Source of the DNA: Candidatus Aminicenantota bacterium
Lineage (GTDB): Bacteria; Acidobacteriota; Aminicenantia; Aminicenantales; UBA4085
Assembly (NCBI GenBank): GCA_016931595.1
Contig: JAFGEN010000196.1
Coordinates: 1 to 33,253 of the forward strand
Length of the DNA: 33,253 nucleotides
Direction of reading: 5' to 3'
Below the pieces are notes generated by a model that saw only the letters and a list, made by a program, of their open reading frames with translations, had not been told where the DNA came from and did not search any database. This document shows positions 3,608-29,440 of this stretch, one piece after another. The position numbers and the translations under genes are program-made. Every line of letters starts with the position of its first letter. Position 1 is the first letter of the stretch.

Positions 3608-5447
<1,840 letters not shown>

Positions 5448-12420: not shown

Positions 12421-13333
12421 AAAAACGGCCAACCAGCCATCCGCCGGGACGGTTGCGGCCTATTTGCTCTACAAGGTTTTCTCCCTATTTGTCGCCATCC
12501 TGCCCCGAGGACTGGTCCTTCTCTGGGGACAAGCGGTCGGTTGGATCGCCTATCACCTGGACTCAAGACATCGGGCGATCGCCCGGGCCAATCTGGTTCA
12601 AGCCTTTGGACCGTCCCTTCGGCCGGCCGAACGATCGAGGATCGCCCTTCGTTCCTACATGAATTTCGTCCGGACGCTTTTTGACGGCCTGAAAACCGCC
12701 CCCTGGTCCCAGGCTCGCCTGATGAGGCTGTTCGACGTCGAGGGCGGAGACCATTTCGACCGGGCCGCCGCCTCCGGCCGGGGCGTTCTCCTGTTCACCG
12801 CCCATTTCGGCAACTGGGAGATGATCATTCCCCCGATCGCCGACCGGATGAAATTTCTCATCATTGCCCGAGCCCTGGACAACCCGCTCATCGACCGGGA
12901 CGTGGAAAAGGCCCGGGAGCGGAGAGGAGCGACCATCATCGACAAGTTCGGGGCGGGACGCCGAGTGCTTCGGGCCTTGGCTCGGAAAGAGGCCGTCGGC
13001 ATCCTGATCGACCAGAATGTCCTCCGCCGGGAGGCCGTTTTCGTCGATTTTTTCGGGAAGCCGGCGGCGACAACTCCGGCCCTGGCCTTTTTCCACCTCC
13101 GGACGGGAGCCCCGGTCGTTCCCATGTATTGCGTCCCCTCCCCGGGAAACCGGTACAGGTTTCGGTTCGAGCCGCAGGTTGAAATCAGCCTCTCGGGAAT
13201 CGAGGGGGAGGACGTGTTGAAAATTACGGCCGTCTGCACTAAGATGATCGAAGAAACCATCCGCCGGCATCCGGAGCTCTGGCTGTGGATTCACAAACGC
13301 TGGCAATCGAGGCCCCTGAATGAAACAACCTGA
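12413..13333 (+). CDS. lysophospholipid/lipid A acyltransferase (LpxL/HtrB-like)
   Basis: GTG start overlapping lpxK by 8 nt; FTAHFGNWEM catalytic motif, HPELWLWIHKRWQSRP C-terminal motif. Confidence 0.92.
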   Translation: MSEKTANQPSAGTVAAYLLYKVFSLFVAILPRGLVLLWGQAVGWIAYHLDSRHRAIARANLVQAFGPSLRPAERSRIALRSYMNFVRTLFDGLKTAPWSQARLMRLFDVEGGDHFDRAAASGRGVLLFTAHFGNWEMIIPPIADRMKFLIIARALDNPLIDRDVEKARERRGATIIDKFGAGRRVLRALARKEAVGILIDQNVLRREAVFVDFFGKPAATTPALAFFHLRTGAPVVPMYCVPSPGNRYRFRFEPQVEISLSGIEGEDVLKITAVCTKMIEETIRRHPELWLWIHKRWQSRPLNETT

Positions 13334-14093
13334 AAACCGGCGGACCGGCCGCTCCGGGGGACGGACTCCCGAGGCCCTCCGGCCGGTCAAAATCACCCCC
13401 GACTTCATCGAAATCGCCGACGGTTCGGCCTTGATCGAGATGGGCCGGACCCGGGTCGTGGCCACGGCCACGATCGAGGAGAAGGTCCCGCCGTTTCTCA
13501 AGGGGACGGGCCAAGGCTGGGTCACGGCCGAATACGCCATGCTTCCCCGGGCCACGGATAAGAGAACACCCCGGGAGCGGCAGATGGGCTATCCCTCGGG
13601 CCGAAGCCAGGAGATTCAGCGCCTGATCGGACGATCGCTTCGGGCCGTGACCGACCTTCGAGCCCTGGGCGACCGGCAGATCATCCTCGATTGCGACGTC
13701 CTCCAAGCCGACGGAGGGACGCGCGTCGCGTCGATCAACGCCGCCTGTATCGCCCTGGCCTTGGCCTTGAAAAAGCTCCTGGATGCGAACATTCTCAAGA
13801 TCCTTCCACTCCGACACCTTGTCGGGGCGATTTCCGTCGGCCTGGTCGACGGCGAAGCCCTCTGCGACCTGGACTATGGGGAGGACTCCCGGGCCGAGAC
13901 CGATATGAACGTCGTTGAAACCGACCGGGGCCAGCTTTTAGAGGTCCAGGCCACGGCCGAACGGACGCCCTTTTCCAGAAACCAGCTCGATACGCTTCTC
14001 AAACTGGCCGACGCCGGGATCGCCGAGGTCGTCCAGGCTCAAAAAGACGTCCTCAAGAAAAAAAGCCTGATGTTCATGGCCTATGGTCGGTAG
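13320..14093 (+). CDS. rph: ribonuclease PH
   Basis: GTGQGWVTAEYAMLPRATDKRTPRERQMGYPSGRSQEIQRLIGRSLRAV, DCDVLQADGGTR. Confidence 0.96.
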   Translation: MKQPENRRTGRSGGRTPEALRPVKITPDFIEIADGSALIEMGRTRVVATATIEEKVPPFLKGTGQGWVTAEYAMLPRATDKRTPRERQMGYPSGRSQEIQRLIGRSLRAVTDLRALGDRQIILDCDVLQADGGTRVASINAACIALALALKKLLDANILKILPLRHLVGAISVGLVDGEALCDLDYGEDSRAETDMNVVETDRGQLLEVQATAERTPFSRNQLDTLLKLADAGIAEVVQAQKDVLKKKSLMFMAYGR

Positions 14094-14196: not shown

Positions 14197-15600
14197 ATGA
14201 ATCTCGTCACCGTCCTGATCGTCATCGGAGCCGTTCTCGTCCTGGCCGTCGGCCTGGGCTTTCTTTTCGCCAAACAATTCCGGAAAGTCGGGCCGAATGA
14301 AGCCCTGATCATCTCCGGCCGCAAGCGCAGCCTGACCCTTCCCGACGGCACGGTTAAAAAGGTCGGATACCGGGTCCGGATCGGCGGCGGCACATTCGTC
14401 CATCCCTTCACCGAGAAAGTCGATCTCCTTCCGATGGATGTCCTTTCGATGACCATCCGCACCCCCGAGGTCCTGACCCGGGGCGGCGTGCCGATCGTGG
14501 CCGACGCGGCCGCCCAGGTGAAGATCGATTCCTCGGAGGCGGCCATCTCCATGGCCGCCGAACAGTTCCTCGGCATGGGCCGGGATGGGATCAAGGAAGT
14601 AGCCGTCAACGTCCTCGAGGGCAAGATGAGGGAAGTCATCGGGACGATGACTGTCGAGGAAATCTACCGGGGACGGGCCGATTTCAACCAGAAGGTCGCC
14701 GAAACCGTCAGGGAGGATTTCGGAAAGATGGGATTGGCTCTTCTCTCCTACGCCCTCAAGGAATTCAGCGACACCCAGGGATACATCGACGCCCTCTCCA
14801 AGCCGCTGATTTCAGCGGCCAAACGCGATGCCGCCGTGGCTGAGGCCGAGACCGAAAAAGAAGCGATTATCCGGTCGTCCCAGGCCCGCAAGGAAGGCGA
14901 GGTAGCCCGTCTCCAGGCCGAGGCTCAGATCGCCAAGGCCCAGTGGGAAAACGAAGCGAAAAAATCCGAGTCCCTGACCTCGGTCAACCAGAAAAAGGCC
15001 CAGGCCGACTTCTCCTACGAGCTCGAGCGGTATCGCCTCTCGCAGGAATTGAAGCGGGAGGAAAGCAAGGTTCTGATGGTCGAAAAGGAACAGGCGATCC
15101 AGATCGAGGACCTCGAAATCAAGCGCCGGGAAAAAGAGCTCGAATCCAACGTTTTAAAGCCGGCCGATGCCCGGAAATACCAGATCCGGGCCGAAGCCGA
15201 AGCCGAGGAATTCCGCATCCAGGCCGAAGCCCGCGGCAAGGCCGAGGCGGTCAAGCTCGAAGGCCAGGCTGAAGCCGGCCGAATCAAGGACAAAGGGGCG
15301 GCCGACGCCGAAGCCATGACCAAGCGTGCTCAGGCGATGAGCCTCTACAAAGACGCCTCGGTCTTGGAGATGTATATGAAGGTCCTTCCGGAAGTGGTCA
15401 AGAGCGTCTCCGAACCGCTGTCGAAAATCGACAAGATCGTCCTTGTCAACAGCGACAAGGACCTCGGCTTGAACAAAATCTCGGGACAGACGGCCCAGAT
15501 CCTGGCCCAGATTCCCGACATCGTCCAGACGCTGACCGGGGCCGATTTGAAGAAATTCCTCCGGGAGAAGCTATCGGTCGAACCCAAGAGCGAGAAATAA
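14197..15600 (+). CDS. flotillin-like SPFH/band-7 domain protein
   Basis: N-terminal TM, SPFH region, long A/E/K-rich coiled coil (AEAEAEEFRIQAEARGKAEAVKLEGQAEAGRIKDKGAADAEAM). Confidence 0.9.
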   Translation: MNLVTVLIVIGAVLVLAVGLGFLFAKQFRKVGPNEALIISGRKRSLTLPDGTVKKVGYRVRIGGGTFVHPFTEKVDLLPMDVLSMTIRTPEVLTRGGVPIVADAAAQVKIDSSEAAISMAAEQFLGMGRDGIKEVAVNVLEGKMREVIGTMTVEEIYRGRADFNQKVAETVREDFGKMGLALLSYALKEFSDTQGYIDALSKPLISAAKRDAAVAEAETEKEAIIRSSQARKEGEVARLQAEAQIAKAQWENEAKKSESLTSVNQKKAQADFSYELERYRLSQELKREESKVLMVEKEQAIQIEDLEIKRREKELESNVLKPADARKYQIRAEAEAEEFRIQAEARGKAEAVKLEGQAEAGRIKDKGAADAEAMTKRAQAMSLYKDASVLEMYMKVLPEVVKSVSEPLSKIDKIVLVNSDKDLGLNKISGQTAQILAQIPDIVQTLTGADLKKFLREKLSVEPKSEK

Positions 15601-15630: not shown

Positions 15631-17961
15631 ATGATCTCCGATAAAGCCAACCGCATCGGCGCCTCGCCGACATTCAAGGTCGCGGCCAAGGCCAAGGCGA
15701 TGAAGGCCGAAGGCATCGACGTCGTCGACCTGAGCATCGGCGAGCCCGATTTTCCGACCCCGGAAACCGTCAAGGCGGCCGGGATCAAAGCCATCCAGGA
15801 CAATTACACCAAGTACACCGAAAACGACGGCTCGCCCGCCCTCAAGAAGGCCATCATCGGCCGGCTGAAGGAGGATTACGGGCTGACGTATGCGCCGAAC
15901 GAGGTCATCGTCAACTGCGGGGCCAAAAGCTCGTTGTTCCACGCCTTCCAGTCGCTGATCAACGACGATGAGGAAGTCATCATCCCGGCCCCGTACTGGG
16001 TTTCCTATCCCCATCTCGTCCATCTGGCCAAGGGAAAATCCGTCTTTGTTCCGACGAAAGAGGAGAACGGCTTCATCCTGACGGCCGAGGAGCTCAAGGC
16101 CCACATCACACCGGCGACGAAAGCTCTCCTTCTCAATTCTCCGTCGAATCCGACGGGAGCGGCCTACACGGCCGAACAGCTGGACGCTCTGGCCGAAGTC
16201 ATCCGAGGGGAGGACATTTACGTCATTTCCGACGAAATCTACTCCTGCCTTGTCTACGACGGATTCAAGTACCGGAGCATCGCCTCCCTGGGCGAAGACC
16301 TGAGAAAGAAAACCGTGTTGATCAACGGCGTGTCCAAGGCCTACGCCATGACGGGCTGGCGGATCGGCTATGCGGCCGGCCCGGCGCCGTTGATTGCGGC
16401 CATGAGCCGCATCCAAAGCCACACGACCTCCCATCCCGCCTCCATCTCCCAGCGGGCCAGCATCGAAGCCCTGGCCGGTTCCCAAGCGGATGTCTCACGC
16501 ATGCGCGCCGAATTCGAACGCCGCCGGAATTACTCCCTGATGAAGCTTCGAACCATTCCCGGGCTCTCCTGCTTCGAGCCCCCGGGAGCCTTCTACCTGT
16601 TTCCCAACATCCGCTCGTTTTTCGACCTGGAATTCAACGGAACCCCCATCCGCAATTCCTACGGAATGGCCTATTACCTCCTGAGGGAGGCCCGGGTGGC
16701 AGTCGTCCCCGGAGACGCCTTCGGCGCCGACGACTACATGCGCCTGTCGTACGCCACCTCGATGGAGAACCTGGAAAAGGGACTCAACCGGATCGCCCAG
16801 GCCCTGGCCCGGCTCAAGCCGGCCAAGCGGGCCAAGCGGGTCGCCTTGAGCAACGTCGTCACCCGGCAGCGCGGGCCGGTCCCGGTCGAGGACCGGCTGG
16901 CAGTCGCCCTTCGGGACGGACTTGTCGCCGAGGCAGAGGCGCGCCTGGCCTCAGACGTCGTGTTCGAATGGAACGCCAATATCGCCGGGGTGATCGTCCG
17001 CCTGCGGACCAACGTCCGTCATATTTATGAAATGTGGACGGAAAACTGGACCCCGGCGCCTCCTGATTCGGGCCTCGAGCCGCACGGCCATCTCTACGCC
17101 GTCGACGGGATCGCCGGACGGGAACCCCGGGCCTTCTTCAACACCGAGACCAAAACCGGAGTCGTCGTCAATGTCGACGCGTATGCCCCGGTCCGAAGCC
17201 TGGCCCTCGGACTGGCCGGGGATGTCGCCGGACGCAGGTTTGGGGCCAACCTGGTCCGGGGCATGTCGGTCGATACCGAAGGCCTCGGTCTGCTCCTCGT
17301 CGGCCCGGCCGGGACGAAAAAAACGGAACTGTTCTTCAGCCTTCTCCGCGATCCCCGGTTCCGGTTCCATTCCGGGGACATCGTCCTGGTCCGGCCGGCC
17401 GGAACGGCCGCCCAGGCCGAGGCATTCGAACGGAAGGCCTTCCTCCCGACCAACACCGTTGAGTTGTTCGGCCGCCTGGCTCCGCTTTTCGACCGGAGCA
17501 AGTGCGAGAACGTCGTCATCCGGAAAGAGGACTGCCAGAACGTCGAATGCCTGCGGACGGAAGACTGCCGGCTGGACCGCGGCGGCCCGTTCTGTTATAA
17601 AGCGGCCAAGGACGCTTGCGCCCTCCTCGACCCGGAATGGCTTGGCCCGTCGGCCGCCCCGCGCCGGACGGCCCTGCGCTGGATCTTCCTCCTCCGCAAC
17701 GATTCCGTTTCCCAGGCCGTGGAAGAAGTATCCCTGGACGAGGCCCTTCGAATCCTGGAGCGCGGCGAAACCCCCGGCTTGAAGAAGTCCGCCGCCGCCC
17801 GGCCTCAGCCGTTTTTCAACCCCTTCTTTCTCGAATCCACAGACGACCGGGTCGAGCTCGAAAAAGACTTCTATCGCCGGCTGTTGCCCAACGTCCGGAC
17901 GTTTTTATTCAATTCCGGAACGGCCGGAATCGACCAAATCAAGGAAGCGATCGGCCTTTAA
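15631..17961 (+). CDS. class I/II aminotransferase (AspC-like) fused to a C-terminal PEPCK/HprK-like P-loop domain
   Basis: N-term: LSIGEPDFPTPE, NSPSNPTGAAY, SDEIYSCLVYDG, GVSKAYAMTGWRIGYAAGP (PLP Lys present). C-term from about aa 400: FFNTETKTGVVVNVDAYAPVRSLALGLAGD...GLLLVGPAGTKKTELFFSLL...RFHSGDIVLVR. One uninterrupted 776-aa ORF. Confidence 0.88.
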   Translation: MISDKANRIGASPTFKVAAKAKAMKAEGIDVVDLSIGEPDFPTPETVKAAGIKAIQDNYTKYTENDGSPALKKAIIGRLKEDYGLTYAPNEVIVNCGAKSSLFHAFQSLINDDEEVIIPAPYWVSYPHLVHLAKGKSVFVPTKEENGFILTAEELKAHITPATKALLLNSPSNPTGAAYTAEQLDALAEVIRGEDIYVISDEIYSCLVYDGFKYRSIASLGEDLRKKTVLINGVSKAYAMTGWRIGYAAGPAPLIAAMSRIQSHTTSHPASISQRASIEALAGSQADVSRMRAEFERRRNYSLMKLRTIPGLSCFEPPGAFYLFPNIRSFFDLEFNGTPIRNSYGMAYYLLREARVAVVPGDAFGADDYMRLSYATSMENLEKGLNRIAQALARLKPAKRAKRVALSNVVTRQRGPVPVEDRLAVALRDGLVAEAEARLASDVVFEWNANIAGVIVRLRTNVRHIYEMWTENWTPAPPDSGLEPHGHLYAVDGIAGREPRAFFNTETKTGVVVNVDAYAPVRSLALGLAGDVAGRRFGANLVRGMSVDTEGLGLLLVGPAGTKKTELFFSLLRDPRFRFHSGDIVLVRPAGTAAQAEAFERKAFLPTNTVELFGRLAPLFDRSKCENVVIRKEDCQNVECLRTEDCRLDRGGPFCYKAAKDACALLDPEWLGPSAAPRRTALRWIFLLRNDSVSQAVEEVSLDEALRILERGETPGLKKSAAARPQPFFNPFFLESTDDRVELEKDFYRRLLPNVRTFLFNSGTAGIDQIKEAIGL

Positions 17962-17980: not shown

Positions 17981-18571
17981 TCAGTGTCCCGGGAACATCA
18001 GCTCCTCGATATCTCCGGCCAGGAGATGAAGCAGGAACAGATGAATTTCCTGGATGCGGGGGGTTTCCGAAGAGGGGACGTCAAGCAGGATGTCGGCCAG
18101 CGGCGCACTCTTTCCCCCGCTCCATCCGGTGAGAACGATCGTCACCAGGCCCTGCTCTTTGGCCGTCTTCAGGGCTTCAAGGACGTTGGGGGAATTGCCG
18201 CTCGTCGTCAAGCCGAGGGCGATGTCCCCCACGTCGCCGAGAGCCTCGATTTGGCGGCTGAAGACCGCGTCGTATGAAATGTCGTTTCCGATGCAGGTTA
18301 AAACCGAGGTATCCGTGGAAAGGGTCACAGCCCGAAGAGCCGGCCGGGGCTTGAGAAACTTATTGACCAGCTCGGCGACGAAATGCTGGGCCTCGGCCGC
18401 GCTGCCGCCGTTTCCAAAGGCCAGGATTTTCCGCCCGCTCCTCAGGGCCCCGAGGCAGGCTTCGACGGCCCGGCCGTAGGCTTCCCCCCGGGTGGCGAAA
18501 AATTCATCCAGAAGACGGCTCCATTCCTTGGCGATGAGTCGGTGATCCATGATTCCTTCCTCCTTCCTCAT
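17981..18571 (-). CDS. gmhA: phosphoheptose isomerase-like SIS domain protein
   Basis: FGNGGSAAEAQHFVAELVNKF, LTTSGNSPNVLEALKTAKEQG. Confidence 0.88.
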   Translation of the reverse strand: MRKEEGIMDHRLIAKEWSRLLDEFFATRGEAYGRAVEACLGALRSGRKILAFGNGGSAAEAQHFVAELVNKFLKPRPALRAVTLSTDTSVLTCIGNDISYDAVFSRQIEALGDVGDIALGLTTSGNSPNVLEALKTAKEQGLVTIVLTGWSGGKSAPLADILLDVPSSETPRIQEIHLFLLHLLAGDIEELMFPGH

Positions 18572-20877: not shown

Positions 20878-20910
20878 GACGCATATTGTCTATATGCGAC
20901 GCATTTTGTC
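20878..20910. promoter_or_regulatory. two direct copies of GACGCATWTTGTC, 20 bp apart: candidate PilR upstream activating sequence
   Basis: GACGCATATTGTC 20878-20890 and GACGCATTTTGTC 20898-20910, 76-108 bp upstream of the -24 box. Confidence 0.6.
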
Positions 20911-22336
20911 ACAGCTCTGTCGGTTCAGGGGGCAAATCCCTACTATCGCCCCTTGGCTCGACTCCCCGGACTGGTTTGATCTCATATTTTTTGATCAGGT
21001 AACGCAAGGACCGGTAGCTCACCCCGAGGAGTTCAGCCATTCGGCGCATATTGCCAGCGGCCGCCCCCGCGGCTTCCTGGATATAGGCTTTGGCTACCTT
21101 GTCCAAATGGGTTTCAAGATTGAAGCCCGGAATCAGGGCCGGACTTCCCATGGCCGGAAGAGCCCCGGCGTTGACGATATCGGAAGGGAGGCTCCCCATG
21201 GTGATCGTCTCCCGTTCCTCCACTGCGCACATTCTCTCGACGACGTTCTCCAGTTCCCGGACATTGCCTGGCCAGGAATAGTTCATCAGGGCCGAGACGA
21301 CATCGGGCGTCATCCGCTTGACCTTGCGGCCCATTTTTTCGCAGTGTTTCCGGAGGAAGTGCTGGACCAGGACCGGAATGTCCTCCGTCCGCTTCCGCAA
21401 GGCCGGCATATCGACCGAGATGACGTTCAGCCGGTAGAACAGCTCCTCGCGGAACTTGCCCTCCTCGATCCGCTTGCGGAGGTTCTGGTTGGTCGCGGCG
21501 ATGACGCGCACGTCCACGGCGATTTCCTCGTTGCCCCCGACCCGGCGGATCGTCCTCTCCTGAAGAACCCGGAAGAGCTTCACCTGGGTCCAGGGCGACG
21601 TTTCCCCGACTTCGTCCAGAAAGATCGTCCCGGCCGAGGCCGTTTCGAACATGCCCTTTTTATCCGACACGGCCCCCGTAAACGACCCCTTCATGTGTCC
21701 GAACAGCTCGCTTTCCAGGAGGTTCTCCGGGAGGGCGGCGCAATTGATGGAAACGAAGGCCCGCTCCTTCCGCCGGCTGTTGGCATGGATCGCCCGGGCG
21801 GCCAGCTCCTTTCCGGTCCCGCTTTCCCCGGTGATCAGGACGGTGGAGTCCGTCGAGGCCACCTTCTCGATGAGTCCGTACACCTCCCGCATCGCCCGGC
21901 TCTTTCCGATCATGTTCTCGAAGCTGGATTCCTCGCGGAAGGTCTGCTTGAGAATCCGGTTTTCCTCGAGCAGCCGACGGTGTTCGAGACCGTTGGCCAC
22001 CAGGATCTTCAGCTCATCGATGTCGAACGGCTTGGTCAGGTAATCCAGGGCGCCCAGGCGAAGGGCCTCGACGGCCTGCTTGACGCTGGCATAGGCGGTG
22101 ATCATAATCGCCGGGACGGTCGGCTTGGCCTCCTTGAGACGCCGGAGCACGTCCATTCCGTCGACTTGGGGCATTTTGATGTCGCAGATCAGGAGGTCGA
22201 TGTCTTTCTGTTCGATGTCCTCGAATACGCTCGGAGCGCCCGGGTTGGACAGGACGGCGTATCCTTCCTTCTTCAGGACGACGGTCAACAGCTCGACGAT
22301 CGACCGTTCGTCGTCGACGATCAGAACCGTGTTCAT
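20909..22336 (-). CDS. pilR: sigma-54-dependent response regulator (PilR)
   Basis: Receiver domain (LLICDIKMPQVDGMDVL), AAA+ GESGTGKELAARAIHANS and ELFGHMKGSFTGAVSDKKGMFE (GAFTGA variant GSFTGA), Fis-type HTH at C-terminus. Confidence 0.93.
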   Translation of the reverse strand: MNTVLIVDDERSIVELLTVVLKKEGYAVLSNPGAPSVFEDIEQKDIDLLICDIKMPQVDGMDVLRRLKEAKPTVPAIMITAYASVKQAVEALRLGALDYLTKPFDIDELKILVANGLEHRRLLEENRILKQTFREESSFENMIGKSRAMREVYGLIEKVASTDSTVLITGESGTGKELAARAIHANSRRKERAFVSINCAALPENLLESELFGHMKGSFTGAVSDKKGMFETASAGTIFLDEVGETSPWTQVKLFRVLQERTIRRVGGNEEIAVDVRVIAATNQNLRKRIEEGKFREELFYRLNVISVDMPALRKRTEDIPVLVQHFLRKHCEKMGRKVKRMTPDVVSALMNYSWPGNVRELENVVERMCAVEERETITMGSLPSDIVNAGALPAMGSPALIPGFNLETHLDKVAKAYIQEAAGAAAGNMRRMAELLGVSYRSLRYLIKKYEIKPVRGVEPRGDSRDLPPEPTEL

Positions 22337-23628
22337 CGGCTTCCGGCCTCCCTTCCTTCGCCCCCGGACGGGGGGAATTCCCTGTACGGCAGGGTGATCA
22401 GGACTTCGGTTCCGACATGCGGCTCGGATTGAACCGCGATGTTCCCCGCGTAGCTGTCGAGGATCTGCCGGACCACGGCCATGCCCAGGCCGCGGCCTCC
22501 GTCGAACCGGGTATAGAACGGCTCAAATATTCGGGCTTTCTCCTCGGCCGTCATTCCCCGGCCCGTGTCGATAATTCGAATGGAGAGATCGTTTTTTTTC
22601 GGGCGGCCGAAATCGACTGAAAGTTCGCCCCCCTCGGGCATCGCCTTCAGGGCGTTCCCGATCAGGTTCCAGAAGACCTGCTTGAACTGCCCGGGGCTCC
22701 CGAAATACGTGATGTCGGCCGAGGAATAATTGCCCTTGATCTTGACCAGGTCGGTCAGTTCGCCGCTCATCCGGAGCATCGTCAGCGTTTCGGAGACCGG
22801 CTCGGCCAGTTTGAAGGCGGAATAGGTCTGCTTGCCCGGTCCGGCCATGCTGAGGAACTGCTCGATGGACAGGGAGACCCGCCGTGACTCCTTGACGACG
22901 ATGGCCATCAGGCGGGACTGCTCCTCGTCCAGGGACAGGTCGCCCTGGAGGACCTGGACGGCGCCGGAGATCGCGGCCAGGGGGTTTCGAATCTCGTGTG
23001 CGACAAAGGCCGAAGCCCGGCCGGCGGCCGCTTCCCGCTCCCGAGCCTCGATTGCCTTTTGAGCCGCCGCCAGGGCCGCCCTGGTTTTTCGGAGGCTCGA
23101 GGACAGCTGGGCGACCAGGACCGCGATCACGAAGAAAAGCCCCCAGGCGGTGAAGACTGTATACAGGGTGAACCCGATTCCCGTATCCGGCGCCTGGTCC
23201 GGACGGAAATAAGGAATCCAGCCATAGGCCAGGCTGTCGGCCAGAACCCCGAAGAGAATCGAGGAGAGGGCCGCGGTCAGGAACGCCGCCCGACCTTCCA
23301 GGACAAGGCCGGCGGCGATGATGGAAAAGACGTAAAGAAAATGAAGCTGGCCGCTGATCCCGCCGGAAATATACACCAGGCCGGAGATGACCGCCAGGTC
23401 GACCAGGATCTGGGCGTAGGCCTGGGCCCGGTAATGGGTGTCGAAGAGGAGGAGCAGTAAAAAACCGGCCCCGCTGATAAATTCCGAAATGATCAGGAAA
23501 TAGAACGGAGCCAGGGGAAGAAACGACGACGTGGCCAGTTGGATCACCACGGCCGCGACGAACAGCGAGCTGACGACGACCAGCCGCCCGAGGAGCAGCC
23601 AGCGGACGTTTCGCTTCAGGATCAACAT
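22333..23628 (-). CDS. pilS: membrane sensor histidine kinase (PilS)
   Basis: Multi-TM N-terminus, FVAHEIRNPLAAISGAVQVL H-box, HATPase; overlaps pilR start (ATGA). Confidence 0.92.
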   Translation of the reverse strand: MLILKRNVRWLLLGRLVVVSSLFVAAVVIQLATSSFLPLAPFYFLIISEFISGAGFLLLLLFDTHYRAQAYAQILVDLAVISGLVYISGGISGQLHFLYVFSIIAAGLVLEGRAAFLTAALSSILFGVLADSLAYGWIPYFRPDQAPDTGIGFTLYTVFTAWGLFFVIAVLVAQLSSSLRKTRAALAAAQKAIEAREREAAAGRASAFVAHEIRNPLAAISGAVQVLQGDLSLDEEQSRLMAIVVKESRRVSLSIEQFLSMAGPGKQTYSAFKLAEPVSETLTMLRMSGELTDLVKIKGNYSSADITYFGSPGQFKQVFWNLIGNALKAMPEGGELSVDFGRPKKNDLSIRIIDTGRGMTAEEKARIFEPFYTRFDGGRGLGMAVVRQILDSYAGNIAVQSEPHVGTEVLITLPYREFPPSGGEGREAGSR

Positions 23629-23632
23629 CAGA

Positions 23633-24838
23633 TCATTGGATCTGGCCGATCAGGCTGAAGATCGGAAGGTACATGGAGATGACGAGGGTGCCGACGAGGC
23701 CGCCGATGAAGATCATCATGAACGGCTCCATAATGGACAGCAACGACCCGACGGTGGAATCGATTTCGTCGTCGTAGAAGTCCGCCAGCTTGTTGAGCAT
23801 CTTGTCCAGGGTCCCCGTGGCCTCGCCGACGCTGACCATCTGGACCAGCATGAAGGGAAACCTTCCGGTGCTCTTCATCGAGTCGGTCATGCTCCGGCCT
23901 TCGGTCACCTGCTTGCGGACATCCATGACCGTCTTTTCCAGGATGACGTTGCCGGCCGTCGTCGATGTGATCTTGATGGCTTCCAGCATCGAGACGCCGC
24001 CCCCGAGAAGAGTGGCCAGCGTCCGGGTCACCCGGGAAAAGGCGACCTTGGTCATCAACGGGCCGAACAGCGGCAGCTTGAGGATGATGTTGTCGGTCGT
24101 CCACCGCCCGCCTTGGGTTTTCCGGTAATAGCGGAACAAGAAAATCGCCGCGACCACGCCCAGGGCCAGAAAGAGCATGTATTTCTGGACAAAACCGGAC
24201 AGGCTGATCACGCCCGCCGTCAACGAGGGCAGCCGCGCCCCCAGGTCGACGAAGATCTGGGCGAAGATCGGGATGATTTTCCAGAGCATGAAGACGGCGA
24301 TAATGATGGCGAAGACGAAAATGGCGACCGGGTAGGTCATGGCCTGCTTGACCCGGGCTTTCAGCTTGACCGTGTTCTCGGTGTAATCGGCCAGCCGGTT
24401 GAGCATGGTGTCCAGGGTTCCGCTCTGCTCGCCCGAGGCGATCAGGTTGCAGAACAGGTCGTCGAACACCTTGGGGAATTTCCGCAGGCCTTGGTCCAGG
24501 CTCGAACCGGCCTCGACGTCGGAACGAACCTGGGTGATGACCCGCTTGAAATACGGATTACGGGTCTGCTCGGCCATGATATTGAGGCCCTGGATGAGGG
24601 GCAGCTCGGCGTCGATCAAGACGGACATCTGCCGGGAAAACACGGCCAGCTCCTTCGTCTTGACCTTCTCCCGCTTGAGAAACGGAATATTGAGACCGCC
24701 CCGGACCGGAGAGACACTGTCGACCTTGATCTGCTCCCGCTGGAGCAGCCGGGTCAATTCCTCGGCGCTGGCCGCAACCCGTTGGCCGTCGACCATATCG
24801 CCGAATTTGTTGGTGCCCTTCCAAGAATAGACCGGCAT
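23633..24838 (-). CDS. pilC: type IV pilus inner-membrane platform protein PilC
   Basis: FSRQMSVLIDAELPLIQGLNIMAEQ and C-terminal LLSIMEPFMMIFIGGLVGTLVISMYLPIFSLIGQIQ. Confidence 0.95.
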   Translation of the reverse strand: MPVYSWKGTNKFGDMVDGQRVAASAEELTRLLQREQIKVDSVSPVRGGLNIPFLKREKVKTKELAVFSRQMSVLIDAELPLIQGLNIMAEQTRNPYFKRVITQVRSDVEAGSSLDQGLRKFPKVFDDLFCNLIASGEQSGTLDTMLNRLADYTENTVKLKARVKQAMTYPVAIFVFAIIIAVFMLWKIIPIFAQIFVDLGARLPSLTAGVISLSGFVQKYMLFLALGVVAAIFLFRYYRKTQGGRWTTDNIILKLPLFGPLMTKVAFSRVTRTLATLLGGGVSMLEAIKITSTTAGNVILEKTVMDVRKQVTEGRSMTDSMKSTGRFPFMLVQMVSVGEATGTLDKMLNKLADFYDDEIDSTVGSLLSIMEPFMMIFIGGLVGTLVISMYLPIFSLIGQIQ

Positions 24839-24856
24839 GGGAACGCTCCTTCAGGT

Positions 24857-25954
24857 TCAGCGCTTGACGGTCGTGGCCACCCCGGCCCCCCGGCGCTGGA
24901 TGAGGTCGGTCAGCTCTTCCGGGTTGGACGTGGCCATCATAGCCGTATCGAGGGTGATCATCTTGCGGTAGTAGAGGTCGCAGAGGTTCTGGTTGAACGT
25001 CAGCATCCCAAACTTCTCCTGGCCAAGCTGCATCTGGGAGTAGATCTGGTGGATCTTGTTCTCCCGGATCAGGTTGCGAACGGCCGGATTCGGGATCAGA
25101 ATCTCCATGGCCAGGACCCGGCCTTTGCCGTCGGCCCGGGGCAGGAGCGACTGGCAGAGAACGCCCTCCAGGGACATCGAGAGCATGACCCGGGCCTGGG
25201 CCTGGTACTGGGGGGGGAAGATATCGATGATCCGGGAAATCGTTTCGGGAGCCGAATTCGTGTGGAGCGTGGAAAAGGTCAAATGCCCCGTCTCGGCCAC
25301 CCGGAGCGTCATCTCGACCGTCTCCTGGTCGCGCATCTCGCCGACCAGGACAACGTCGGGGTCTTCCCGGAGGACGGAACGGAGGGCGTTGTTGTAGGAC
25401 AGGGTGTCGGCGTGGAGCTCGCGCTGGTTGATCAGGGCCTTCTTGGGAGTGAAGAAATATTCGATCGGGTCTTCGATGGTGACGATATGAACAGGCCGCT
25501 CGGTATTGACATGATCGATCATGCAGGCCAGGGTCGTCGATTTGCCGCTCCCGGTGGGGCCGGTCACCAGGATCAATCCGCGCGGCAGGAAGCAGAGTTG
25601 GGCGATCCGGGCCGGGATCCCCAGCCGCTGGAAGCTCCACATCGAGGGGAGGAAACGCCGGATGGCCGCGGCCACTCCGCCTTTCTGCATGAACACATTG
25701 GCCCGGAACCGTCCGAGGTCTTTGACCCCGAAGGAGAGGTCGAGCTCGAGTTTCTCCTCGAAGAGCTTTTTCTGCTTATCGGTCAGGATGCTGTAGATGA
25801 GGTGCTTGGTCTCGGTCGGAGACAGGGGCGGATGGTCGATCGACTTCAACTCTCCATAGATCCGAATCCGCGGGGGGATGTAGGTCGACAAATGGAGATC
25901 ACTGGCGTCGGAGTCGACCGCCAGCCTCAACAGCTCGTGCATCGTCATGGGCAT
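24857..25954 (-). CDS. pilT: type IV pilus retraction ATPase PilT
   Basis: GPTGSGKSTTLA, AIRRFLPSMWSFQRLGIP, GEMRDQETVEMTLRVAETGHLTFSTLHTNSA. Confidence 0.95.
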   Translation of the reverse strand: MPMTMHELLRLAVDSDASDLHLSTYIPPRIRIYGELKSIDHPPLSPTETKHLIYSILTDKQKKLFEEKLELDLSFGVKDLGRFRANVFMQKGGVAAAIRRFLPSMWSFQRLGIPARIAQLCFLPRGLILVTGPTGSGKSTTLACMIDHVNTERPVHIVTIEDPIEYFFTPKKALINQRELHADTLSYNNALRSVLREDPDVVLVGEMRDQETVEMTLRVAETGHLTFSTLHTNSAPETISRIIDIFPPQYQAQARVMLSMSLEGVLCQSLLPRADGKGRVLAMEILIPNPAVRNLIRENKIHQIYSQMQLGQEKFGMLTFNQNLCDLYYRKMITLDTAMMATSNPEELTDLIQRRGAGVATTVKR

Positions 25955-25971
25955 GTCTCTTCTCCAGGAAT

Positions 25972-27705
25972 TTAATCCTTGACGGTTTCACGCAGGACCT
26001 CTTCGGGAGTCGTGATCCCGGCCATGATCTTGATCAGGCCGCTGCGCCGCATGGTGATCATGCCGCTTTCGACGGCTTTTTTCTTGATGTCTTTGGACTG
26101 GGCCCGAAGCAGAATCATCTCCCGGATCTCCGCATTGAGTTCCATGACCTCGAAAAGGGCGGTCCGGCCTTTATACCCCGTGTTGTGGCAGATCTCGCAA
26201 CCGCGCCCTTGCATGATTGTCACCGTTTCGGCTTCCTCCGGAGAAAATCCCATATCGATCAACGATTTGACCGGAAGCTTCGTCGGGGCGCCGCATTTCT
26301 TGCAGACCCGGCGGATCAGGCGCTGGGCCAGGACCAGGGCCAGGGAGTCGGCGATGAGAAACGGCTCGATGTTCATGTTGATCAGGCGGTGGATCGTCGC
26401 CGCTGAATCGTTTGTGTGGATGGTGGAGAAGACGAGGTGGCCGGTCAGGGCGGCCTTGATGGCGATATCGACGGTCTCCTGGTCGCGCATCTCCCCGATC
26501 AGCATGATATCCGGGTCCTGGCGAAGGAAGGCCCGAAGGGCGGCGGCGAACGTCAGGTTGATCTCGTCCCGGATGTTGACCTGGTTGACGCCGGGGACAT
26601 AGAACTCGACCGGGTCCTCGGCAGTCATGATATTCTTCTCCATTCCGTTGAGTGTCGAAATGGCCGAGTACAAGGTGTTGGTCTTCCCGCTTCCGGTCGG
26701 ACCGGAGACCAGGATGATGCCCCAGGGCCGGGCGATGGCCCGTTGGAACGTGGTCAGGGATTCCTGTTCGAAGCCGAGCTTGTTGAGGTCGATGTTGAGG
26801 TTGTCCTTGTCCAGGAGCCGGGCGACGATCTTTTCGCCGAAGATCGTCGGCAGACAGGAGATGCGCATATCGACTTCTTTTTTCAACCCCTTTTCCATCC
26901 TGGCCCGCATTTTGATCCGGCCGTCCTGGGGCAAGCGCTTCTCGGCAATGTCCATATTGGACATGATCTTGACCCGCGAGGTCAGCGGATTTTTAAATTT
27001 CATCGGAAGGTTCATCGTCTCGTACAGGACGCCGTCGATCCGGTACCGAATGCGGAAGGATTTCTCGTAGGGCTCGAAATGAACGTCGCTGGCCCCTTTC
27101 TTGATGGCCTCGACGAAGATGTTGTTGACCAAGGTGATGATCGGGGCCTCGTCAGGGACGTCTTCGTCGACCTCCGTATCCTCGTCTTCCTCGACTTTCT
27201 CGAGCTGCTCGATGACCGAGATCTTCGTGTCATCGGCCAACTCGATTTCTTCGATGTTCTTCTTGACCTTGAGGCCATGGCCGGCCCCGTAGTACTTGTT
27301 GATGGCGTTGACGATCCCGGCCTCCGAGGCGATGACCGGCTGGATACTCAGGCCCGTCCGGAACCGAATGTCCTCGATGATATCCAGGTCGGTCGGGTCG
27401 ACCATGGCCAGGGTCAGGAACGACCGGATGCGATGGATCGGCATGACCAGGGATTTTTTGGCTGAATCGGCGGTGATCAGGCTGATGACATCGGGATAAA
27501 CCTCGAATTGGTCGAGGTCGATATACGGATACCCCAACTGCCGGCTGAGGCCCTGGGCCATTTCTTCACCCGAAAGAAAATTCAGGGATACGATGGCCGA
27601 GCCCAGGGGGACGTCGTGTTTTTTCTGGAATTCCTGGGCGGCTCTCAGCTGTTCAGGAGTGAGGATCTTTTCCTTCAGAAGAACTTCGCCCAGTGTTGAA
27701 CCCAT
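25972..27705 (-). CDS. pilB: type IV pilus extension ATPase PilB
   Basis: MshEN-like N-terminus, GPTGSGKTNTLYSA, GEMRDQETVDIAIKAALTGHLVFSTIHTNDSA, CKKC...CEIC zinc tetrad. Confidence 0.96.
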   Translation of the reverse strand: MGSTLGEVLLKEKILTPEQLRAAQEFQKKHDVPLGSAIVSLNFLSGEEMAQGLSRQLGYPYIDLDQFEVYPDVISLITADSAKKSLVMPIHRIRSFLTLAMVDPTDLDIIEDIRFRTGLSIQPVIASEAGIVNAINKYYGAGHGLKVKKNIEEIELADDTKISVIEQLEKVEEDEDTEVDEDVPDEAPIITLVNNIFVEAIKKGASDVHFEPYEKSFRIRYRIDGVLYETMNLPMKFKNPLTSRVKIMSNMDIAEKRLPQDGRIKMRARMEKGLKKEVDMRISCLPTIFGEKIVARLLDKDNLNIDLNKLGFEQESLTTFQRAIARPWGIILVSGPTGSGKTNTLYSAISTLNGMEKNIMTAEDPVEFYVPGVNQVNIRDEINLTFAAALRAFLRQDPDIMLIGEMRDQETVDIAIKAALTGHLVFSTIHTNDSAATIHRLINMNIEPFLIADSLALVLAQRLIRRVCKKCGAPTKLPVKSLIDMGFSPEEAETVTIMQGRGCEICHNTGYKGRTALFEVMELNAEIREMILLRAQSKDIKKKAVESGMITMRRSGLIKIMAGITTPEEVLRETVKD

Positions 27706-27998: not shown

Positions 27999-28136
27999 AT
28001 GCACGGCGCGGTAGAAGACAAGAATGTCCAATCCGCCGGCGCGGTTCTCCGCGGTCATATTCCCAGCCTAGAGAGAAATCGCCCGGACGCAGTCGCCGCT
28101 TTCATCGATTCCATTTTCCGGAAGGAGGCCCGATGA
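27999..28136 (+). CDS. possible 45-aa small protein translationally coupled to the downstream AOS-like gene
   Basis: MHGAVEDKNVQSAGAVLRGHIPSLERNRPDAVAAFIDSIFRKEAR, stop overlaps ATG 28133 (ATGA). Confidence 0.35.
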   Translation: MHGAVEDKNVQSAGAVLRGHIPSLERNRPDAVAAFIDSIFRKEAR

Positions 28137-29440
28137 GAGAAGAGAATCCCGCCGAAAACCGGTCGAACAAGGACCGCCGAGGGAGCGACCGCCGGAGCGC
28201 CGGCGAACCCAAATCCGATTCCGAGCGCCGGGTCGGCGACCGCCGCAAGCATGAGAGGCGGATTTATCAAAATCCCAAGCAATTGAATTTCATCCGTTTT
28301 TTGAAGGAAAAGGGCCTTTATCCCTATGAAAAGGCCTATGACCAGCCCGACGGCCCCGAGGTGATCTTCGAGGGAAAGAACATCATCAACCTGGCCTCGG
28401 TCGATTATTTCAATTTCGCCCAAAACAGCGAGATTAAAAAGGCCGCCTGTGCGGCCGTTAAGAAATACGGGGCCGGCGGCTTCTCCTCCCGATACTCCAT
28501 GGGGAACCTGAGAATCCACATGGACCTGGAGGAGAAGCTGGCCGAGTTTATGGGCAAGGAAAGCATCCTGATTTTCAATTCCGGATACCTGGCCAACCTC
28601 GCGGTCATCACCTCGATCATGCCCAAGAACGCGACGATTTTTCTCGACCAGAAATGCCACTTGAGCATCCATCACGCCTGCCTGCTTTCCGGGAAGAAAT
28701 ACCATCGGTTCGGGAACAACGACATGGCCGCCCTGGAACGCATGCTCCAGGCGCACCGCGACGACCCGGAAAAATGGATCGTCACCCTGGGCGTCTTCAG
28801 CTCCAACGGCATCCTCGGGAAACTGGATGAGATCGCCGTCCTGGCCCGCAAGTACAAAGCCCGGATCTTCATCGACGACGCCCACGGCGTGGGCGTTTAC
28901 GGGGACCGCCTGCGCGGCGCGGCCGAGCATTTCGGCGTCCTGGACGAGGTCGACCTGATCATGTGTCCGTTCCAGATGGCCTTCGGGAACATCGGCGCTT
29001 TTCTCGTCGGCAAGCGTTATCTTCTCCAGCCGGCCCACACCGAGACCTGGCCGTACATCTTCACCTACAACATCCCCCCGGTCTGCGCCGTGAGCATCAG
29101 AAAAGCTCTCGAGATCCTCGACCGAAAAGGGGCTTCCCTGCAGAAAAAGCTCCGGCGGAACGTGGCCGCTCTCCGCGATCGTTTGAAGGCCATGGGTTAC
29201 GAGATCCTCAACCCCGAGGGCCATATCATCCCCATTCTAATCGGCGATGAAGTGCTGGTCTGCCGGTTCGCCCATTTCCTGTTCGAGCGCGGCGTCTGGG
29301 TCCAGCCGTTTTTCTACCCGGCCGTCCCCAAGGGAAAGGCAATGGTCCGAGTGACCTGCACCATCGGCCATACGTTCCAGGAGTTGGAGAGGGCGGCCGG
29401 GATTTTCGCCGAAGCCCGCAAGAACCTCGGCCTGGAGTAA
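28133..29440 (+). CDS. alpha-oxoamine synthase (KBL/BioF/SPT) family protein lacking the PLP Schiff-base lysine
   Basis: KBL-like landmarks: DQKCHLSIHHACLLSGKKYHRFGNNDMAALE, IFIDDAHGVGVYG; but MCPFQMAFGNIGAF where GTLGKALGGASGG is expected. Confidence 0.88.
   Translation: MREENPAENRSNKDRRGSDRRSAGEPKSDSERRVGDRRKHERRIYQNPKQLNFIRFLKEKGLYPYEKAYDQPDGPEVIFEGKNIINLASVDYFNFAQNSEIKKAACAAVKKYGAGGFSSRYSMGNLRIHMDLEEKLAEFMGKESILIFNSGYLANLAVITSIMPKNATIFLDQKCHLSIHHACLLSGKKYHRFGNNDMAALERMLQAHRDDPEKWIVTLGVFSSNGILGKLDEIAVLARKYKARIFIDDAHGVGVYGDRLRGAAEHFGVLDEVDLIMCPFQMAFGNIGAFLVGKRYLLQPAHTETWPYIFTYNIPPVCAVSIRKALEILDRKGASLQKKLRRNVAALRDRLKAMGYEILNPEGHIIPILIGDEVLVCRFAHFLFERGVWVQPFFYPAVPKGKAMVRVTCTIGHTFQELERAAGIFAEARKNLGLE

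Follow-up and report, generated by a model that had tools for sequence, protein, structure and literature searches.

Aspartate aminotransferase (AspAT) converts aspartate to oxaloacetate, which PEPCK normally uses next, and PEPCK and HPr kinase (HprK) have a common P-loop ancestry. Two reports describe the bacterial flotillin FloT as a scaffold in functional membrane microdomains (PMC5718613, PMC4409396). The window analyzed here, a stretch of 33,253 nucleotides from contig JAFGEN010000196.1 of a Candidatus Aminicenantota bacterium (order Aminicenantales, phylum Acidobacteriota; assembly GCA_016931595.1), contains a gene in which an AspAT is fused to a C-terminal domain with a predicted PEPCK fold, directly downstream of a flotillin-type gene. 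The host genome comprises 2.93 Mb in 373 contigs and is about 87% complete. A literature search, in which subscription journals were thinly covered, returned no description of the fusion, of the operon, or of the PEPCK residues and lineage discussed below, and no earlier description was found of the fusion and flotillin as a putative membrane-anchored metabolic unit.

The fusion gene and its distribution

The fusion gene (15631 to 17961, + strand) is one frame of 776 amino acids, free of internal stops and frameshifts. Its N-terminal half (amino acids 1 to 390; 15631 to 16800, +) has the fold type I architecture of class I AspATs, with an Aminotran_1_2 (PF00155) match at amino acids 30 to 388 (E 1.9e-70, profile positions 2 to 361 of 361) and the AspAT B structure 6f35 as the nearest solved structure (E 1.8e-105). 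The PLP lysine, K236 (16336 to 16338, +), lies in GVSKAYAMTGWRIGY, and we take SKxxxxTGWRxG to be the family motif around it. K236, N173 or N169, D201, Y204, R244, and R371, presumably the PLP lysine and cofactor-site residues of the class I AspAT family, are invariant in 47 full-length homologues. The domain passes no equivalog cut-off, though the closest models and structures are AspATs, and it is predicted from these matches to be a class I AspAT with aspartate/oxaloacetate specificity. The initial annotation had described an uninterrupted AspC-like aminotransferase, complete with its PLP lysine, fused to a domain of ~370 amino acids, and the open frame, the PF00155 match, and K236 bear this out. 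A second aminotransferase class I/II gene, unfused, is located at 28133 to 29437 of the window (PF00155, E 1.5e-35).

The two halves are joined by a low-confidence linker at about amino acids 391 to 425 (16801 to 16905, +), most of which has a pLDDT of <65 in both models. The model of the full-length fusion reached a pTM of only 0.52, too low for a reading of the interdomain geometry. Third-position G+C contents are similar in the flotillin gene (0.79), the aminotransferase half (0.82), and the C-terminal domain (0.80).

Of 59 order-level relatives, 52 have the fused architecture of ~780 amino acids, which also occurs in other classes of the Acidobacteriota. In the 52 relatives, the C-terminal domain shares 49% to 82% identity with that of the window and the frames are without stops; nearly all of the frames carrying it are 738 to 854 amino acids long and include the aminotransferase, with those of G027 and G050 shortened by contig ends. 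A sample of 396 genomes from the phylum yielded 43 with clear matches to the C-terminal domain, including 18 from outside the order. With few exceptions, the fusion frames in this sample, those of other classes among them, are 774 to 799 amino acids long. Two further matches in the sample were marginal (E 5e-4 and 8e-4) and fell in short proteins; the marginal match of G108 overlaps a genuine HprK gene. An exact-peptide scan of a separate contig collection, the single survey that reached beyond the Acidobacteriota, recovered 37 fusion loci, which belong to Aminicenantes or Acidobacteria where named. Both halves are conserved, with a mean column identity of 72% in a 47-row full-length alignment. 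The fusion of AspAT to the C-terminal domain is real and lineage-wide, and is found in many Acidobacteriota. The two-domain architecture that the initial annotation had called nonstandard, and for which it had proposed a search, thus recurs across relatives, and the frameshift or assembly join it had considered near positions 16800 to 16850 is absent, the frame being free of stops in independent assemblies.

Fold and catalytic positions of the C-terminal domain

The C-terminal domain (about amino acids 426 to 776, ~370 amino acids; 16906 to 17958, +) was delimited with an AlphaFold (AF2) model and Foldseek. It has no Pfam match even at an E value of 1, no NCBIfam model covers it, and neither PEPCK family model, PF01293 or TIGR00224, matches it up to that value; phmmer and hmmsearch searches against PDB sequences returned chance-level matches only. 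The AF2 model, built from a 48-row alignment, has a mean pLDDT of 82 and a pTM of 0.82. Foldseek comparison with the PDB gave the ATP-PEPCK structure 1oen as the best match (E 1.2e-15, TM score 0.65 by query, 399 columns). The 50 matches listed were PEPCKs without exception, with no HprK among them. The ATP-PEPCK alignments spanned 350 to 399 columns against a modeled domain of 386 amino acids, and the best match in a library of viral structures was the ATP-PEPCK of Catovirus (E 1.9e-13). Profile alignment was collinear with PEPCK across 331 columns (E 2.4e-4). The hhalign scores (41 for PEPCK, 41 for HprK, and 36 for a T2SSE control) separate PEPCK from neither HprK nor the control; therefore, the fold comparison carries the PEPCK assignment. 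The HPr kinase model matched weakly and locally around the P-loop (E 0.027), with matches in 9 of 48 members (best E 0.0065), and TIGR00679 scored 13.7 bits against a cut-off of 240. According to the structural model, the domain is an ATP-PEPCK fold over almost its full length. The proposal of a PEPCK/HprK-type P-loop domain was accordingly right about the superfamily and about the P-loop-type fold expected of the C-terminal half, but not about an HprK type.

Catalytic positions were compared in E. coli PEPCK numbering, mapped by profile alignment and motif inspection, in 56 Aminicenantales C-terminal domains and 15 homologues from other classes. We take K213, H232, and D269 to be the PEPCK Mn2+ ligands, R65 and R333 to be substrate residues, and K254 to be the Walker A lysine. 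The N-terminal ~80 residues of PEPCK, including R65, have no counterpart in the domain. The Y207 position is tyrosine in 55 of the 56 Aminicenantales sequences, and the K213 position is leucine in all 56 and a residue other than lysine in the 15 other-class sequences. The H232 position, with a register uncertain by one residue (G544 according to hhalign, R543 according to the other-class motif AHCAALD), is arginine in 56 of 56 Aminicenantales sequences and histidine in 14 of 15 from other classes. The R333 position is mostly histidine, glutamine, or tyrosine in Aminicenantales and is arginine in all 15 of the others. A single acid stands where PEPCK has D268 and D269 and HprK has an Asp pair. 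The ligand and substrate set K213, H232, D269, R65, and R333, with a register set partly by motif inspection, is not retained. The catalytic residues lost differ between lineages, which argues against conserved PEPCK chemistry, and for this reason the domain is read as a pseudo-PEPCK that is probably catalytically dead.

The Walker-A-like motif GPAGTKKT (amino acids 558 to 565; 17302 to 17325, +) is a conserved element of the domain. Its lysine, K564, occupies the K254 position and is lysine in 56 of 56 Aminicenantales sequences and arginine in 15 of 15 from other classes, and T565 is present in all 56. The invariant lysine and threonine hint that nucleotide binding, or even catalysis, may be retained in Aminicenantales. 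Another conserved element is a stretch of five cysteines, C625, C635, C640, C646, and C655 (17503 to 17595, +), all present in the 56 Aminicenantales sequences, with C635, C646, and C655 in the 15 other-class sequences; it sits where model confidence is low.

Flotillin coupling and separate PEPCKs

The stop codon of the upstream gene (14197 to 15600, +) lies 30 nt before the ATG of the fusion. This gene encodes a flotillin-type SPFH protein, with matches above cut-off to the SPFH (PF01145, E 3.7e-26) and flotillin C-terminal (PF15975) domains and a match to the FloT model NF058507 (E 4e-107) that is nevertheless below the equivalog cut-off. A flotillin gene lies directly upstream on the same strand in each of the 55 distinct loci whose upstream sequence is long enough, ending no more than 97 nt from the fusion frame, and the two genes are probably cotranscribed. 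An RNase PH-family gene (13320 to 14093, +) is a conserved upstream neighbor, and a convergent SIS-domain protein gene downstream (17981 to 18571, -; PF13580, E 6e-26) is shared by several families of the order. Enolase, which makes or uses PEP, is encoded at 3656 to 4951, some 9 kb upstream of the flotillin and fusion genes. A type IV pilus-like cluster at 20909 to 27705 (-) comprises an NtrC-type regulator, a PilS-like sensor kinase, T2SSF, and two T2SSE ATPases.

Within the order, the C-terminal domain and the flotillin are both present or both absent in 58 of the 59 genomes (52 with both and 6 with neither), and the sole discrepancy comes from G048, where the 3,001-base contig terminates within the flotillin. 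Neither was found in G004, G024, G030, G035, G039, and G047, of which G024, G039, and G047 are 70% to 82% complete, making their absences weak. In the 396-genome sample, a close flotillin homologue (E <= 1e-98) was present in 43 of the 43 genomes with the C-terminal domain versus 14 of the 353 others (Fisher 1e-45, with genomes counted without regard to relatedness). A tree of 58 aminotransferase domains requires three label changes and is readable as one fusion followed by two later losses of the C-terminal domain, in G004, which is nested next to G008, a member of its own genus, and in G118, which is nested among fused lineages. A stand-alone aminotransferase persists in each (74% and 60% identical, respectively), and in neither was there a flotillin match or, near the locus, a remnant of the C-terminal domain; the order of RNase PH, aminotransferase, and SIS genes is retained in G004. 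These two genomes indicate that the C-terminal domain is dispensable to the aminotransferase and was not kept without the flotillin. The copresence could also result from joint loss of the operon and not from physical contact.

Some related flotillins, 43% to 47% identical, lie beside other genes without the fusion. In the Acidobacteriota family f22 (L241, 5092 to 7967; L242, 1841 to 4719), the frame of a related flotillin, 43% to 44% identical, overlaps that of a gene for glutamine synthetase (PF00120, E values of 1e-139 or lower) in place of the fusion, which suggests that the subfamily may serve other nitrogen enzymes. Two other flotillin genes of the same subfamily (L244, 8338 to 9627; L247, 8199 to 9593) have an MFS transporter gene downstream in the same orientation.

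A PEPCK relative of ~620 amino acids is adjacent or close to the fusion in 26 of the 55 loci, 17 on the same strand and 9 on the opposite strand. It matches PF01293 (E 1e-24 to 1e-28) and scores well under the TIGR00224 and NF006821 cut-offs. Its Y/K/K, H, Walker, and Asp-pair motifs are present in 29 of 29 copies, and the NGR motif, as the pattern was written here, is present in 18. A GTP-PEPCK is lacking in 39 of the 41 genomes tested, which belong to lineages with the ~620-amino-acid relative or close to them, and a PF01293 match is present in all 18 genomes outside the order that carry the C-terminal domain, in most cases no stronger than that of this relative. The relative (for example, L198, 615 to 2510; L200, 4504 to 6441; L106, 1227 to 3059; L112, 3351 to 5219) may be the sole PEPCK in many Acidobacteriota without a GTP-PEPCK. 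The relative is absent from the family of the window, whose own genome encodes a separate GTP-PEPCK (G000:C15); the fusion was accordingly rejected as the PEPCK of the cell. In G030 (L206, 2623 to 5498), the frame of a 408-amino-acid aminotransferase and that of a canonical ATP-PEPCK share about 25 nt. This pair occupies the same RNase PH-SIS site with a different aminotransferase, the fusion and flotillin being absent, and comparison with the fusion loci indicates that the association of aminotransferase and PEPCK at the locus arose by two routes.

Proposed role and comparison with known systems

The coupling to flotillin and the separate PEPCK relative are the strongest clue to function and go beyond what the initial annotation had considered. 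The C-terminal domain comes and goes with an upstream membrane-scaffold protein, a pattern suggestive of a metabolic unit anchored at the membrane. In the reading we prefer, to which we assign a probability of about one-half, an active AspAT is placed on a flotillin scaffold by a noncatalytic PEPCK-fold domain. The aminotransferase half would produce oxaloacetate, and the C-terminal domain, its PEPCK catalysis lost, would serve mainly to position the aminotransferase by binding, directly or indirectly, the membrane scaffold of the neighboring flotillin, so that oxaloacetate would be produced at a fixed membrane site. Oxaloacetate would then be converted to PEP by the ~620-amino-acid relative where this is in the cluster, and elsewhere by a GTP-PEPCK encoded at another locus. 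The domain may in addition bind nucleotide or oxaloacetate and relay information on energy or carbon status to the aminotransferase. The metabolic logic of docking comes from the 26 of 55 loci that adjoin a motif-intact PEPCK relative and the 39 of 41 genomes without GTP-PEPCK, and also from the aminotransferase-PEPCK pair at the G030 site. A more specific and only tentative version envisages a flotillin-anchored aspartate-to-PEP assembly: the pseudo-PEPCK domain would be an obligate subunit that docks the AspAT and pairs with the motif-intact relative as a heteromer channeling oxaloacetate, this partner having later been replaced by GTP-PEPCK in Aminicenantales families such as that of the window.

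Alternatively, the domain may be a nucleotide-binding regulator in which the ATP or GTP level shifts the conformation and tunes transamination, with flotillin docking not being its main role. The invariance of K564 and T565 in Aminicenantales agrees with this, as does nucleotide binding by the solved relatives, among them several entries with bound ATP, ADP, or GTP. However, K564 is replaced by arginine in every other-class homologue, and loss of the domain alongside flotillin while the aminotransferase stays is left unexplained, which makes such a regulator possible but unlikely. The nucleotide-controlled transamination or kinase activity suggested by the initial annotation is unsupported as written, given this arginine and the single acid in place of the Asp pair. 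The cysteine stretch, conserved yet poorly modeled, raises the idea of a switch that acts on the aminotransferase through metal binding (zinc or iron-sulfur) or redox state, but C625 is leucine in other classes, C640 is missing in 6 of the 15 homologues, and L102 lacks both C635 and C640, so that we consider it improbable. A bifunctional enzyme, whose C-terminal domain would convert the oxaloacetate from the AspAT to PEP on one polypeptide, would fit the PEPCK fold, the metabolite common to the two enzymes, and the PEPCK relative beside the gene in other lineages. It is very improbable, since the substrate-binding N-terminal segment is gone, the K213 position and either the H232 or the K254 position are lost depending on the lineage, and a separate GTP-PEPCK or an intact relative is encoded by the own genome and by other carriers, respectively. 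An HprK-like kinase or phosphorylase that targets the aminotransferase or flotillin could account for the weak HPr kinase matches (E 0.027 and 0.0065) through shared P-loop ancestry, but is more doubtful still because the fold matches listed are all PEPCKs over the full domain, one acid replaces the two Asp residues of HprK, and the genome carries a genuine HprK gene at another locus (G000:C127); membership in the HprK family was rejected on the TIGR00679 score and the reduced Asp pair. A frameshift, misassembly, or chance read-through is ruled out by conservation of the identical fused frame across dozens of independent assemblies, with nothing found in its favor.

Bacterial flotillins are known as scaffolds, but identifying the specific clients of each is difficult. 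Here, comparison of genomes singles out a candidate client together with a domain that tracks the scaffold, for which a direct binding test is simple. The fusion of two oxaloacetate-node enzymes, the second decayed to a probably noncatalytic domain, also offers a clear case for pseudoenzyme research, and the ~620-amino-acid relative matters in its own right as what may be the only PEPCK in many Acidobacteriota.

Compared with class I AspATs (6f35 and 1bjw), the window protein has the same full catalytic domain, but those solved relatives stand alone, at roughly 370 to 475 amino acids. With HprK (PF07475) it has a weak similarity in the P-loop region, but neither a full-length match nor the Asp pair, and HprK is missing from the 50 fold matches listed. 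The upstream gene product resembles FloT as an SPFH/flotillin protein, but it scores under the FloT equivalog cut-off, and no published operon pairing such a protein with an aminotransferase::PEPCK fusion was found. ATP-PEPCK (PckA, PF01293) has in common with the C-terminal domain the predicted fold, the tyrosine at the Y207 position, and the Walker A site, the lysine of which is arginine in the 15 other-class homologues, whereas the domain differs in having no Pfam match, no N-terminal segment, and none of the Mn2+ ligand and substrate positions as a set, and in carrying a cysteine stretch and being fused to an AspAT.
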